Assembly (NCBI RefSeq): GCF_009695545.1
Contig: NZ_VUNS01000001.1
Span: forward strand, 186,001 to 250,000
Length of the DNA stretch: 64,000 nucleotides
Direction of reading: 5' to 3'
Source: Victivallis lenta
GTDB taxonomy: Bacteria; Verrucomicrobiota; Lentisphaeria; Victivallales; Victivallaceae
The notes beneath the pieces were generated by a model. That model made no database searches, was not told the origin of the DNA, and was given only the letters and a program-made list of their open reading frames with translations. Positions 14,972-19,351 of this stretch are shown piece after piece. Numbering within the stretch: position 1 is the first letter of the stretch; each line of letters begins with the position of its first letter. A program made the translations under genes and the position numbers.

Positions 14972-15000
14972 TTGCTTTTTCCGTCTTCCGGCTGTATGTT
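14972..15000 (+). promoter_or_regulatory. putative promoter of the HI0933-type flavoprotein gene
   Basis: TTGCTT (14972-14977) and TATGTT (14995-15000) are 17 bases apart, about 32 bases before the ATG. The pair lies across the inverted repeat AGCCGGAAG/CTTCCGGCT, which could be an operator. Confidence 0.45.
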
Positions 15001-15031
15001 ATACCCGTCACAGATCAAAATACGGATTTTC

Positions 15032-16267
15032 ATGCAGCAAACACTCTCCTGCGATTGCCTGGTCGCCGGCGGCGGCCCGGCGGGACTCTCGGCCGCGATC
15101 GCGGCGGCCGAAGCCGGGCGCCGCGTCATCGTCGCCGAATACCTGCCGTCCCCCGGGCGCAAGCTGCTGGCGAGCGGCTCCGGCAAATGCAACCTGACCA
15201 ATGCGCTCCCTCCTGAAGCGCTGGCGAGGCGTTTTTCCGCTCCGTTCCGGTTCGTCCGGCCCGCGCTCTATTCGTATCCGCCCGGAGCGTGGCGGGAGTT
15301 TCTCTCTGCCCGGGGAGTCCCGACCGTCTCGCCGGACGGGTTTCACTATTTCCCGAAATCGATGCGGGCTGCGGATGTGCTCGACGCACTCCTGCGCCGC
15401 TGCCGAACGCTCGGCGTGACGATCCTGCCCGGGACTCCGCTCCGGAAACTCCTGATCCGGGACGGCAAAATCTCCGGCGCGGAATCCGGGCGCGGCCGGG
15501 TCGATTCCCCCCGGCTCATCCTCGCCTGCGGCGGCATGGGGTATCCGCAGCTCGGCGGCCGCGGCAGCGGCTACGAACTCGCGCGCGAAGCCGGACACCG
15601 GATCGTGCCGCCGGTCCCCGCCCTGGTCGGGCTGCGCGCGGCCGAGGGGTGGGCGGCCCGGCTGCCGGGCATTATCCTTCCTGCCGCGACCGTGCGTTTC
15701 GAAAAGAATCCCGCCGGAACGGGAGAACTCATTTTCACCCACAACGGCGTTTCGGGGCCCGCCGTGCTCGATCTCTCCGGCAGCGTCGCCCGGCATCTCG
15801 AAAACGCCGCCGAAGCCGTTCTCGCCTGCAACTGGCAGAGCCGGCCGCCGGAAGCGTACCGCGAACAATTCGCCCTCTGGCAGAAGCAGGACGGAAAGAA
15901 GCAGCTGAAAACCCTGCTCGCCCGCATGCTGCCCGCCGCCTTCGCCGATGCGCTCTGTGAAGCGGCGGAACTGCCGGGCGGCGGCAGTGCCGCACATCTC
16001 CGGGCGGCGCAGCGCGACCGGCTCGTCGCGGCGCTCACGAGCTATCCGCTCCGGATCTCCGGAACCGACGGCTGGAGCAAGGCGATGGCGACCGCAGGCG
16101 GCGTGCCGCCGGAGGAAGTCGATGCGAAAACCCTCTCCAGCCGGTTCTGCGCCGGGCTCTTCTTCGCCGGTGAGATGCTCGACGTCGGCGCGCCCTGCGG
16201 CGGCTACAACATTCAGTGGGCGGTCAGTTCCGGCCGTCTTGCCGGGAGCGCGGCGGCGCGCCTGTAA
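15032..16267 (+). CDS. HI0933/YhiN-family FAD-dependent oxidoreductase
   Basis: 411-residue flavoprotein. A Rossmann dinucleotide motif (GGGPAGLSAAIAAAEAG, about residues 13-29) is followed by the family hallmark PGRKLLASGSGKCNLTN (about 41-57), a second nucleotide-contact strand LILACGGMGYPQLGG, and the C-terminal FAD pocket FFAGEMLDVGAPCGGYN. The family is widespread but its reaction is not firmly known; some members act on membrane or tRNA-linked substrates. The ATG at 15032 is chosen because the dinucleotide motif follows directly; longer in-frame starts would run into the promoter. The ribosome site is weak. Confidence 0.9.
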   Translation: MQQTLSCDCLVAGGGPAGLSAAIAAAEAGRRVIVAEYLPSPGRKLLASGSGKCNLTNALPPEALARRFSAPFRFVRPALYSYPPGAWREFLSARGVPTVSPDGFHYFPKSMRAADVLDALLRRCRTLGVTILPGTPLRKLLIRDGKISGAESGRGRVDSPRLILACGGMGYPQLGGRGSGYELAREAGHRIVPPVPALVGLRAAEGWAARLPGIILPAATVRFEKNPAGTGELIFTHNGVSGPAVLDLSGSVARHLENAAEAVLACNWQSRPPEAYREQFALWQKQDGKKQLKTLLARMLPAAFADALCEAAELPGGGSAAHLRAAQRDRLVAALTSYPLRISGTDGWSKAMATAGGVPPEEVDAKTLSSRFCAGLFFAGEMLDVGAPCGGYNIQWAVSSGRLAGSAAARL

Positions 16268-16328: not shown

Positions 16329-17540
16329 ATGCAGGAAGGCAATCCCGGTTATCCGCGTCTCGAGGCGGGAAGAAACATGGTGGTCGAGAAACTGCCGGGG
16401 GGATTCCGCATCCACTCCCTCTCCCCGGTCGAAACCGGTTACCGCGGTTATTTCACGGTGCGGCCCTACCCGAGCCGTTCCACCGTCAATCCGCAGAAAG
16501 CGGTCCAGATCGTGAACGGCTCGCTGCCGTACGAGGAGTCGGTCACCCGGGACGCCGGTTTCGTCTCCGTCGACCGCCTGCACTGGATCAAGGAGGAGAA
16601 GGGCGGGCCGGGCATCGGCGCCCGGCGGCTCCGGATTCCGGTACCCTGCATGCCGAACCTCGCAGTCCCGGCCGGCCGCTCGCTGGTGTTTCTCCGGATC
16701 ACGGCCCACTCGGGCGGCAATGCGGACCGCCTGAAATTCCCCGATTCCGGTGGCGGAACCGTCTATTTCGTCCACGACTATCAGGTCCTCGACGATGTGC
16801 CGAAACCGAAGGAAGGAGTCATCTACATTCCGCTGGCCGAAGTCGAATGCGACGACGACGGCGGCTGTTCCGTCACGCAGTTGAACTGCGGCGAACCGAA
16901 CGGTGTCATCATGCAGTATTTCGGCAGCGACACGCTCGACCGCGGCGACGATGCCGGCAGTTCGTCCTCCGGTGGGGCAGACTCCTCCTCCGCTTCCGGC
17001 TCCGACTCCACTCCGGGTTCCGAGAGCAGCGGAAGCGGCGATCCGGGATCCGGCTCCGGCAGCGAATCCGCCTCGGCCTCGTCCGGCTCCGGCACGACAG
17101 ATCCCTCTGGCTCCGGCAGCGAATCCGCCTCGGCCTCGTCCGGCTCCGGCACGACAGATCCCTCCGGCTCCGGCACGACAGATTCCTCCGGCTCCGGCAC
17201 GACAGATCCCTCCGGCTCCGGCACGACAGACCCCTCCGGATCCGGCGGCGGAGGTGGCGGCCACTACGATCCCGATCTCTGGTACCTGGTCGCCGACTGC
17301 ACCCGTTATCTCTGTCATGAGTCCATCGGGATACCGAACTACTCCGGTACGGTCAACTATTATATGGCCAAGGGCGACAAAATCAAATTCGAGCCGGAAC
17401 CCTCCCCGCCCACGGCGGGACAGCCCATCGTCGAATGGCACGGAATCGTCATGATCGAAGGGCCGTTCCAGAACCGGCTCGACGTCACGCAGGAGCATAT
17501 CGATGAACTCAACAATCTTCATATAGGTGACGAATGCTGA
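16329..17540 (+). CDS. protein with Ser/Gly-rich tandem repeats, unknown function
   Basis: 403 residues with no signal peptide. The N-terminal globular part (about 1-205) contains GYRGYFTVRPYPSRSTVNPQ and VYFVHDYQVLDD; it may be beta-rich. The middle (about 210-310) is made only of Ser, Gly, Ala, Thr, Asp, Pro and Glu as SGSGTTDP-type repeats. The C-terminus (about 312-403) has HYDPDLWYLVADCTRYLC and an acidic end. The repeat DNA is a direct tandem array and could change length by slippage. The layout of head, flexible linker and tail resembles structural or fibre-like proteins, but I recognise no family. Its stop overlaps the next gene by seven bases, so the two are probably made together. 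Confidence 0.65.
   Translation: MQEGNPGYPRLEAGRNMVVEKLPGGFRIHSLSPVETGYRGYFTVRPYPSRSTVNPQKAVQIVNGSLPYEESVTRDAGFVSVDRLHWIKEEKGGPGIGARRLRIPVPCMPNLAVPAGRSLVFLRITAHSGGNADRLKFPDSGGGTVYFVHDYQVLDDVPKPKEGVIYIPLAEVECDDDGGCSVTQLNCGEPNGVIMQYFGSDTLDRGDDAGSSSSGGADSSSASGSDSTPGSESSGSGDPGSGSGSESASASSGSGTTDPSGSGSESASASSGSGTTDPSGSGTTDSSGSGTTDPSGSGTTDPSGSGGGGGGHYDPDLWYLVADCTRYLCHESIGIPNYSGTVNYYMAKGDKIKFEPEPSPPTAGQPIVEWHGIVMIEGPFQNRLDVTQEHIDELNNLHIGDEC
17052..17237 (+). repeat. in-frame tandem DNA repeats (57-base and 24-base units)
   Basis: Two 57-base units (17052-17108 and 17109-17165) are followed by 24-base units starting GGCTCCGGCACGACAGA at 17142, 17166, 17190 and 17214, differing at one or two positions. 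Unit lengths are multiples of three, so copy-number changes keep the frame. Confidence 0.9.
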
Positions 17541-19351
17541 TCAACCGGCACAACTGCGTCCAATGCTGCATCAAGCATCTGGCCTCGGCGGCGGTCATCG
17601 CCCGCGAAATCCGCAACGGCTACAACACGCCGGAATACCGTTTCTACTTCATCGGCAACCTGAACGAAGCGCAGGAGCAGATCAGCGGAATTGATCCGAA
17701 ACTCTCGCGGCTGATCCGCACACTGCGGCTCAAATCCGCCCCGGCGGGGCTTGATGCCGAAATCGCGGACTCGACCATCCGGCTGCTCGAACGGATCGCC
17801 CAGGCACTCGATTTCCGCCAGAAGCACGGCGTCTACACCGGGAATCCGGACGAAACGGTGCGGAAATATGCCGGGAAGCGCTGCCGCTGCTCCGACAAGG
17901 CGATCGACATCCTGATCCCGCTGCGGTCGGACGGCTCGAGAAACGGCAACCTCGAACTGAAGCTCGCGCTGCGCTCCATCGAGCGGAACCTGACCGGCTT
18001 CCGGAAAATCTGGATCGCCTCGAAGGAACGTCCCGCCGGATTCGAGCGAATCGGGCATATCGCCGCCCCGGACGACCGTCCCCGCAAACAGATGAACATC
18101 CACCGCGCCATCCTGGCCGCCCTGCGGAATCCCGAAGTCGCGGATGAAATCATCTTCTGGGCGGACGACAACGTGCTGCTTGCGCCGCTGCATGCCTCCG
18201 AACTGCCGGTCGCCGTCCGCGACGACGCGCTCACCGGCTTTTCGAATGCCCCCGACGCCCGCATCTGGCACCGTTCCCTTCGCCAGACCGGCGACGCCCT
18301 GCTGGCGAAGGGGCTGCCGGCCGTCAACTACGAAGCCCATACGCCGGTCCGTTTCAACCGCCGGAATTACCTGGCGCTCGCCGGCGAATTCGACTTCGAC
18401 TCGGGCGTCGGCCTCTGCTATATCTCGCTTTACCTGAATCGGTACGGAGCTCCCGGCCCGGTTCCGATGCGAACCATCAAGGCCACCGCCGAGACGGACC
18501 GTTTCAACCCGGAATCGCTGGAGGGCAAGCTCTTCGCCGGCTTCAACGACACCGGGCTGGAAAACGGCGCGGGGGAGACCCTGCTCAAACGTTTCCCCGA
18601 ACGCTCCCGCTACGAGACGCTCCCCGCGGCCGGCAGCCTTTACAGGCACTCCCCCGGACTCGGAGCGGTCATCGGCACCTGCGGAACGCCGTTTTACGTC
18701 GAACTCCAGCTTGCGGCTCTGGCGCGCTGGAACCCGATGCCGGCCCTCGTCGTCGACGACGGCTCCGGCGACCGGGAACTGCCCGGAATCTGCGCGAAAT
18801 ATCATGCCGAATACCTCCCTCTGCCGCTGCACCGCGGCCACTGGGCCGGGGATCTGCATATCTTCGCCGCAGGCCTGGAGTGGGCGGAACGCAACGGCGT
18901 CACGCTGCTGGTCAAGCTCTCGCGCCGTTTCCTGCCGCTGCGGGAGTGGCAAAGCGGACTCCTCTCTCTCGCCCGCGAATCGAACGCCGTCACCTTTTCC
19001 AGCTGGTCGACAAGCTACGGCCTCGGATTCCGCACCGAATGCCTCGGTCTCTACGTCCCGGCCTGGCTGCCGTGCGTTTCCGCCCTGCGGAGCGCCGCAC
19101 CGGCCGGACGGCATTTCGTCGAGCGTTTCCTGCACAGGAAAGCCCGGATGCTCGTCAACGGCTGGAATTCCGTCGCCTTCGAAGATTACCGGCAGCGGCA
19201 CGATCCGGAGCGGAAGCACGACGGCTATGCGTTCTGGACCGACCTCATGGGAACCGACCGCAGACAGCCGCCTCCGGGCGTCCTCTGGCACGACGCCCAC
19301 TCCGAAGAAGATTACCGTGCCGCCGCCCGGACACTCGGAATCGGCCAATAA
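17534..19351 (+). CDS. two-domain glycosyltransferase-like protein with Cys/His N-terminus
   Basis: 605 residues. The N-terminal 110 residues form a helical module opening with HNCVQCCIKH. The middle (about 122-370) resembles Stealth-type sugar-phosphate transferases: AIDILIPLRSDG, then ELKLALRSIERNLTGFRKIWI and EIIFWADDNVLL, matching the order of conserved regions 1-3 in that family. The C-terminal part (about 375-600) looks like a GT-A fold, with GAVIGTCGTPFYVELQLAAL, a DDGSGD acidic motif and a later VLWHDAH. It may build or decorate a surface glycan. The gene overlaps the repeat protein at ATGCTGA (17534-17540) and has AGGTGA upstream, showing coupling. Both sugar-transferase readings come from motif order only. 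Confidence 0.6.
   Translation: MLINRHNCVQCCIKHLASAAVIAREIRNGYNTPEYRFYFIGNLNEAQEQISGIDPKLSRLIRTLRLKSAPAGLDAEIADSTIRLLERIAQALDFRQKHGVYTGNPDETVRKYAGKRCRCSDKAIDILIPLRSDGSRNGNLELKLALRSIERNLTGFRKIWIASKERPAGFERIGHIAAPDDRPRKQMNIHRAILAALRNPEVADEIIFWADDNVLLAPLHASELPVAVRDDALTGFSNAPDARIWHRSLRQTGDALLAKGLPAVNYEAHTPVRFNRRNYLALAGEFDFDSGVGLCYISLYLNRYGAPGPVPMRTIKATAETDRFNPESLEGKLFAGFNDTGLENGAGETLLKRFPERSRYETLPAAGSLYRHSPGLGAVIGTCGTPFYVELQLAALARWNPMPALVVDDGSGDRELPGICAKYHAEYLPLPLHRGHWAGDLHIFAAGLEWAERNGVTLLVKLSRRFLPLREWQSGLLSLARESNAVTFSSWSTSYGLGFRTECLGLYVPAWLPCVSALRSAAPAGRHFVERFLHRKARMLVNGWNSVAFEDYRQRHDPERKHDGYAFWTDLMGTDRRQPPPGVLWHDAHSEEDYRAAARTLGIGQ

Follow-up and report, generated by a model that had tools for sequence, protein, structure and literature searches.

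A phage tail-tip gene pair of Victivallis lenta with a Stealth-related, putatively linker-glycosylating transferase

Results

Two overlapping genes encode a linker protein and a two-domain transferase

In the genome of Victivallis lenta (G000, 5.5 Mb), two overlapping genes, here called A and B, lie within a stretch of 64,000 nucleotides that was analysed as a whole and is referred to as the window (G000:C1:186001-250000; G codes denote genomes, C a contig within a genome, and L loci or viral contigs). Gene A (16329..17540; this and all other window features are on the + strand) encodes a protein of 403 aa with a linker rich in Ser, Gly and Thr, and is assigned to the tail-tip or collar type from its open reading frame (ORF), its coding signal and the position of its counterpart in a prophage of genome G021. 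Gene B (17534..19351) encodes a two-domain sugar transferase of 605 aa, identified from its ORF, its coding signal and its AlphaFold2 model. The ORF coordinates place the start of B at 17534 and the stop of A at 17540, an overlap of seven bases (17534..17540) that had been noted in an earlier inspection of the letters alone, hereafter the sequence-only reading. A codon-usage gene caller found coding signal in both genes and favoured them over the long antisense ORFs that are typical of the G+C-rich sequence of the window. Overlapping or near-abutting junctions also occur elsewhere, with 14 bases in G021 and 8 bases between the separate genes for the first two parts of B (Bn and B1, see below) in the viral group around L081. 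Single-sequence searches of A and B against Pfam, NCBIfam and PDB found next to nothing, and family profiles were therefore required.

Protein A consists of three parts. Its N-terminal beta-rich domain (residues 1-208; 16329..16952) is defined by homology to linker-less genes and by the AlphaFold2 model, of which only residues 41-198 are good (predicted local distance difference test score, pLDDT, about 80; beta strands 42-195). This domain is 40-46% identical to lone genes of 207-217 aa that occupy this site in G002 and G003 and encode no linker, and shows weak similarity (E 5e-4) to a 180 aa gene in a tail cluster of G031. The linker (residues 209-311; 16953..17261), the presumed sugar acceptor, is predicted to be disordered. 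Its 103 residues include 39 Ser, 29 Gly and 11 Thr, so that Ser and Thr make up 49%, with mainly Gly, Asp, Ala and Pro as the remainder, and it is encoded by tandem repeats of 24-57 bp. Composition and repeats thus bear out the long Ser/Gly/Thr linker of the sequence-only reading, and no other linker of this kind is encoded among the 45 called genes of the window. The C-terminal part (residues 312-403; 17262..17537) is modelled with low confidence, and has counterparts in the A proteins of Victivallis vadensis DSM 14823 (G007), the nearest named relative among the genomes compared, and of G001 and G006. On its own, A gave no family match in Pfam or the other single-sequence searches.

The first transferase domain of B is related to Stealth enzymes

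The AlphaFold2 model of B is confident (pLDDT 85.6) and comprises an N-terminal helical bundle, a GT-A fold at about 124-353 and a second GT-A fold from 376, in agreement with the two sugar-transferase-like domains that had been proposed. We refer to these parts as Bn, B1 and B2. Foldseek searches with the model returned CpsY (TM 0.60 on target), GNPTAB and several dual GT-A enzymes, and Stealth proteins are also among the viral structure models that match the fold of B. As a single sequence, B matches PHROG 7999, a family of unknown function, at E 4e-18, and Stealth_CR2 below threshold.

The relationship of B1 (17870..18637) to Stealth enzymes emerges from a family profile of 26 members. The best match of this profile is GlcNAc-1-phosphotransferase (7s6n, E 3e-19), with both the human and the zebrafish enzyme recovered; it also matches the fly enzyme and mycobacterial CpsY (8j2n, E 3e-12), and no other family rises above noise. 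Taken one by one, 24 of these 26 sequences reach E <= 0.01 against Stealth_CR2. None attains the cut-off of Pfam on its own, a point in which B1 differs from GNPTAB and CpsY. The profile aligns with GNPTAB over CR2-CR3, and the match at the C-terminal end is weak. Over 23 sequences, D125, E141, D180, D211, D212 and H269 are invariant. In human GlcNAc-1-phosphotransferase the NDD motif and a CR3 histidine are catalytic (PMC11418123). D211-D212 of B1 (18164-18169) align with the DD of GNPTAB and H269 (18338-18340) with its H-x-P, so B1 combines a GT-A-type fold with counterparts of the catalytic residues of Stealth enzymes save for the first N of NDD, which is not kept. The label 'Stealth-like' that had been given to the whole enzyme is hence correct for B1. 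Unlike GNPTAB and CpsY, B1 is compact (about 245 aa), sits in a phage tail module and is fused to Bn and to a second GT-A domain. Judging from the Stealth relationship, B1 may transfer a sugar-1-phosphate.

Bn (residues 1-112; 17534..17869) is a helical Cys/His module that is delimited by its invariant residues (C8, C11, K14, H15, G41, R62 and R65) and by its occurrence as a separate gene of 121 aa in phages L081-L087. The HNC-x2-CC-x-KH motif that had been read from the letters holds in part, in that all nine homologues share C8, C11, K14 and H15 but vary at the second C of 'CC'. B2 (residues 369-605; 18638..19348) is delimited by the model strands 376-382, 404-408 and 458-462, by the Foldseek matches and by an invariant DD and K-x-SRR motif. 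A B2-type domain also forms a gene of its own in G029 (L036:16671-17573), where neither a linker protein nor further tail genes are encoded in the vicinity.

The pair recurs in phage tail regions

The A-B pair recurs in V. vadensis and in two other species of the genus, which speaks against a chance arrangement, and A-type and B-type genes adjoin each other in further genomes, as the sequence-only reading had suggested should be looked for. The most complete context is the Mu-like prophage of G021, in which tape measure and collagen-like tail fibre flank the pair, and which also holds a Mu-type transposase, terminase, portal, protease and capsid. B1 occurs in 30 viral contigs, and several groups of these (L081-L087, L096, L101) share the order linker protein, Bn (as its own gene or fused), B1 and fibre genes. 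Viral scans with full-length B, with a seven-row alignment of Bn or with a five-row alignment of B2 returned no relatives by the test of the tool, and a mixed alignment (A1) contained no sufficiently conserved stretch. In two species of another genus, counterparts of A and B head a cassette with fibre, DUF1353, holin-like and lipoprotein genes that is flanked by housekeeping genes. Given the position between tape-measure and fibre genes in G021 and the recurrence in viral contigs, among them L094, L096 and L101, as well as in the tail cluster of G031, the pair is a phage tail-tip module and almost certainly derives from a phage tail. The two possibilities in the sequence-only reading, an enzyme that glycosylates its partner and a mobile-element structural pair, are supported in combination, with the correction that A, with its relatives in tail clusters, is most likely a tail protein and not a surface glycoprotein.

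Bn is combined with different enzymes. It is fused to a GT2-type domain in G014 and G031 and to an MptE-like domain in G015, and at four loci (L047, L248, L252, L253) it occurs without any transferase. The module is therefore not confined to transferase-free structural genes, being often next to a transferase and at times without one, and appears to be a helper. B1 itself adjoins terminase genes, without linkers, in L104-L110, which indicates that this enzyme family is broader than the linker cassette. In a prophage of G036, a gene of the tail-fibre region (L224:3473-4552; G036:C27:81972-83051, - strand) has a start that resembles a reverse transcriptase, and may belong to a diversity-generating retroelement.

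Linkers are found beside transferases

Linker genes are rare (28 of 1127 genes checked), and were counted in two sets, viral loci and genome loci, with slightly different linker definitions. At the 30 viral B1 loci, 13 of 486 genes have a linker, in every case within the B1 protein itself or one to four genes upstream of it; some of these contigs are near-identical, so that the 13 genes represent about five independent groups. By comparison, none of the 430 genes at 33 control loci with an unrelated GT2 domain has one. Among the genome loci, 15 of 641 genes have a linker. A transferase follows one to three genes downstream in every case save for a gene at a contig end in G031, whose presumed continuation bears a transferase. 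No linkers were found in eight transferase-free tail regions (L050, L051, L201/L224, L206, L209, L228, L252 and L253), of which L050 and L051 are lone-A loci. In L094/L103, linker and B1 are joined in a single ORF of 530 aa. Conversely, G002 and G003 retain only the N-terminal domain of A at the shared site, and have neither linker nor B. The transferase next to this kind of linker partner differs in type (Stealth, GT2 or MptE-like). This covariation through adjacency, fusion and joint loss is the strongest evidence that the linker may be the acceptor.

Terminase, portal and capsid genes occupy separate chromosomal loci

Terminase_6C was found in all 18 genomes tested, mostly as a single copy; the match in G021 is that of its prophage. 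In G000, the single-copy TerL (G000:C12:145009-146262; L192:9010-10263) is isolated in ordinary chromosomal surroundings, and throughout the genus it follows a conserved gene of unknown function of about 490 aa (L192:7533-9008 in G000). In other genera TerL lies elsewhere, beside metK in one and beside xseA in another. The portal turned up in 17 of these 18 genomes and is apart from TerL in all save G031. In G000 it is an isolated gene with a small overlapping partner, beside AMMECR1-like and LptF-like genes (G000:C11:97458-98879, - strand; L210:9459-10880). HK97-type portals (PF04860) are rare in these genomes. The capsid, or major head protein, occupies a third place, again in 17 of the 18 genomes, and is part of an isolated scaffold-capsid-adaptor cassette in G000 (G000:C9:9652-11814, - strand; L227). 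Between genera of the family its sequence identity is 64-88%. Within the class, a profile of the isolated capsid genes gave matches at E <= 1e-20 in 70 of 198 genomes, most of them in Victivallaceae and most with a single match. In V. vadensis the intact capsid match is the copy of a Mu-like prophage. In G021, where the pair resides in a prophage, the isolated portal and capsid were not found. PHROG matches in G000 are clear for TerL (E 2e-66), portal (E 4e-31) and capsid (E 1e-33), and the three genes lie on C12, C11 and C9, with the A-B pair on C1, all in ordinary surroundings.

These head genes are under strong purifying selection. Between species of the genus, the ratio of nonsynonymous to synonymous substitution rates (dN/dS) is about 0.02-0.10 for the capsid, 0.09-0.11 for terminase and portal and about 0.2 for the 490-aa protein; it reaches 0.35-0.44 for the N-terminal domain of A and 0.30-0.37 for B, with synonymous sites near saturation. 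In the trees of terminase, portal and capsid the same genera come out as groups, and the isolated copies cluster together, apart from prophage copies, with support of 0.73-0.99 for that split. Since terminase, portal and capsid are also kept, a reading of the set as a tailocin only was set aside.

A connection between the head genes and the A/B-type genes comes from G031. Outside any recognised prophage, this genome has a tail cluster with a tail tube, small genes, a gene related to that for the 490-aa protein of G000 (27% identity, E 1e-48), the 180-aa A-like gene and a linker protein that is cut at the contig end; another contig starts within a repeat of this kind, followed by a Bn-GT2 fusion and a fibre gene. 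Joined in this presumed order, the cluster would connect A/B-type genes to the gene that adjoins TerL in G000. Relatives of the tail tube and terminator are present in G017, G031 and others. G017, a single-contig genome, has a tail tube right after the capsid cassette and two more tube-like genes elsewhere (L242-L245), which are possibly paralogous tail tubes of a dispersed element.

Genes around the pair

Upstream of A lies a gene for an HI0933/BaiN-type oxidoreductase (14996..16267; Pfam HI0933_like, E 2e-65). It precedes A in four species (G000, G002, G003 and G007) and serves as a synteny anchor; we do not claim it as part of the system. The other neighbours are genes for oxaloacetate decarboxylase subunits, glycosidases and pseudopilin-like proteins, and with such flanks we rejected the idea that the pair belongs to a prophage located here.

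Discussion

We interpret A and B as a tail-tip module inherited from what was once a tailed phage. A may act as a tail-tip or collar protein whose disordered Ser/Gly/Thr linker would join a folded domain to a small distal part, and B as a cytoplasmic transferase whose translation would be coupled to that of A. The linker hydroxyls would then be modified by B in the cytoplasm, ahead of the assembly of A into the tail tip. For this purpose, Bn may dock B on its target, be it the tail protein or the assembly line, B1 would pass a sugar-1-phosphate or a sugar from a nucleotide sugar to the Ser/Thr hydroxyls, as its Stealth relationship suggests, and B2 would extend the first sugar or add a second one. 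A decorated linker could serve as an extended, stiff and protease-resistant spacer for receptor contact, or make lectin-like contact with recipient cells. In Victivallis the module lies outside a prophage. It may be one locus of a dispersed, vertically inherited virion set whose other loci hold the terminase, the portal and the scaffold-capsid-adaptor genes.

The presence of linkers beside transferases, the fusion in L094/L103 and the joint absence in G002 and G003 together make glycosylation of the linker likely, and on this comparative evidence we regard it as rather probable that the linker is the acceptor of the sugars of B. The sequence-only reading had entertained such a modification of the partner by the enzyme, and adjacency, the fusion in one phage and the joint absence in two sister species speak for it. 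Transferases that act on virion proteins are not without precedent. According to Freeman et al. 2023, as reported in PMC12363180, the mycobacteriophages Che8, Corndog and Myrna use their own glycosyltransferases to decorate capsid and tail-tube proteins. The module described here would resemble these phages, as far as that account describes them, in encoding transferases for virion proteins, but would differ from them in its presumed target, the Ser-rich linker of a tail-tip protein from an overlapping gene.

Phage-borne transferases often change the surface sugars of the host. B could likewise act on a glycan of the host or phage, in receptor masking or serotype conversion, and its link to the linker would then be merely positional within a tail-fibre cassette. 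The B1-type genes beside terminase that have no linker (L104-L110) favour this explanation, which we nevertheless consider unlikely, given that, in all places examined, linkers were seen only beside such transferases, that linker and B1 are fused in one lineage and that linker and B are absent together from G002 and G003. In addition, no membrane segment is predicted in B, as judged from the secondary structure listing and not from a dedicated program.

Slightly less probable still is that the pair is the leftover of a decayed Mu-like prophage, two intact genes kept by chance and with no present function. Its closest complete context is indeed a prophage, both genes evolve fast, and they are unevenly distributed in presence and copy number, B being found in 18 and A in 10 of 81 genomes. 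However, the reading frames of A and B have stayed intact between species that differ to identities of 28-57%, with dN/dS of about 0.3-0.55 and with the catalytic residues kept, and the site by the BaiN-type gene is common to four species. Moreover, these genomes carry further virion genes that stand just as much alone and yet are strongly conserved. A cell-surface glycoprotein system that today is unrelated to virus particles is very improbable: serine-rich repeat protein loci of Gram-positive bacteria do encode a Ser-rich acceptor together with dedicated transferases (PMC6973325), a likeness that the A-B pair shares, but they are recognised by a secretion signal, a wall anchor and accessory Sec genes, none of which was found among the neighbours or in A, which is without a Pfam match and was judged by eye on its translation and not by a program, and the pair differs further in its Stealth-type enzyme and in its relatives, which lie in phage tail clusters.

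Gene transfer agents (GTAs) have been characterized by proteins derived from caudoviricetes, by a fully endogenised genome, often at several loci, by vertical inheritance with co-diversification, and by particles that enclose random host DNA, cannot package the genome that encodes them and deliver DNA to other cells (PMC9662315). In G000, TerL, portal and capsid have PHROG matches of this origin and the loci are spread over four contigs. The three unlinked gene trees recover genus clades and the genes are single-copy in most of the family, the trees having been compared with each other and not with a host gene tree. As in RcGTA, whose 24 genes are distributed over five loci and whose recognition genes lie outside the head-tail cluster (PMC11409702), and in the Brachyspira GTA (BhGTA), whose single terL is outside the GTA cluster (PMC9662315), virion genes are wholly endogenised over several loci. 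Unlike in both, terminase, portal and capsid are also separate here. We speak of a GTA-like element and not of a GTA, because it is known here from genes alone and because the tail set of G000, as far as found, is incomplete.

Several points weigh against this interpretation. The function of A and B and the GTA-like particle are approached through genes, comparisons and predicted structures. The Stealth_CR2 score of the window B is only 12.6 bits against a Pfam cut-off of 39.4. Two loci with Bn enzymes, L044 and L048, have no neighbouring linker, the latter ending at a contig edge, and the join of the two G031 contigs (C52 and C127) is presumed. In V. vadensis DSM 14823 the A-B pair is intact but the isolated capsid gene is reduced to its last 89 residues, next to an intact adaptor gene (L251:9516-10163, G007:C31). 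In G000, queries for tail terminator, tube and tape measure from the G014 prophage found nothing, and the tape measure of the Mu-like G021 prophage is absent as well, so that the tail of the dispersed set is incomplete on present evidence.

With these points taken into account, the comparative evidence somewhat favours the view that the pair belongs to a dispersed GTA-like element, and we lean towards the pair being the detached tail-tip locus of such an undescribed element. As one of several dispersed virion loci, the Victivallis pair would probably supply the tip of the particle. The widest form of this proposal, for which we see about even chances, is that members of Victivallaceae, together with part of a neighbouring family, have a GTA that is fully dispersed, with one module per locus, the tail tip being tuned by a dedicated phosphoglycosylating enzyme that acts on a Ser-rich linker, and the window pair being that tail-tip locus.

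If this is true, the widespread and unnamed phage family PHROG 7999 would be given a function, Stealth-type sugar-phosphate transfer. The pair would also make it possible to test whether a transferase marks a disordered linker within a tail protein, since fusions and losses that occur in nature provide built-in controls. A lentisphaerotal GTA was not found in the open-access literature searched, subscription papers and preprints being outside its scope. The dispersed genes of Victivallaceae would thus represent an independent GTA lineage in a phylum with none in that literature, scattered such that ordinary prophage finders would miss the set.

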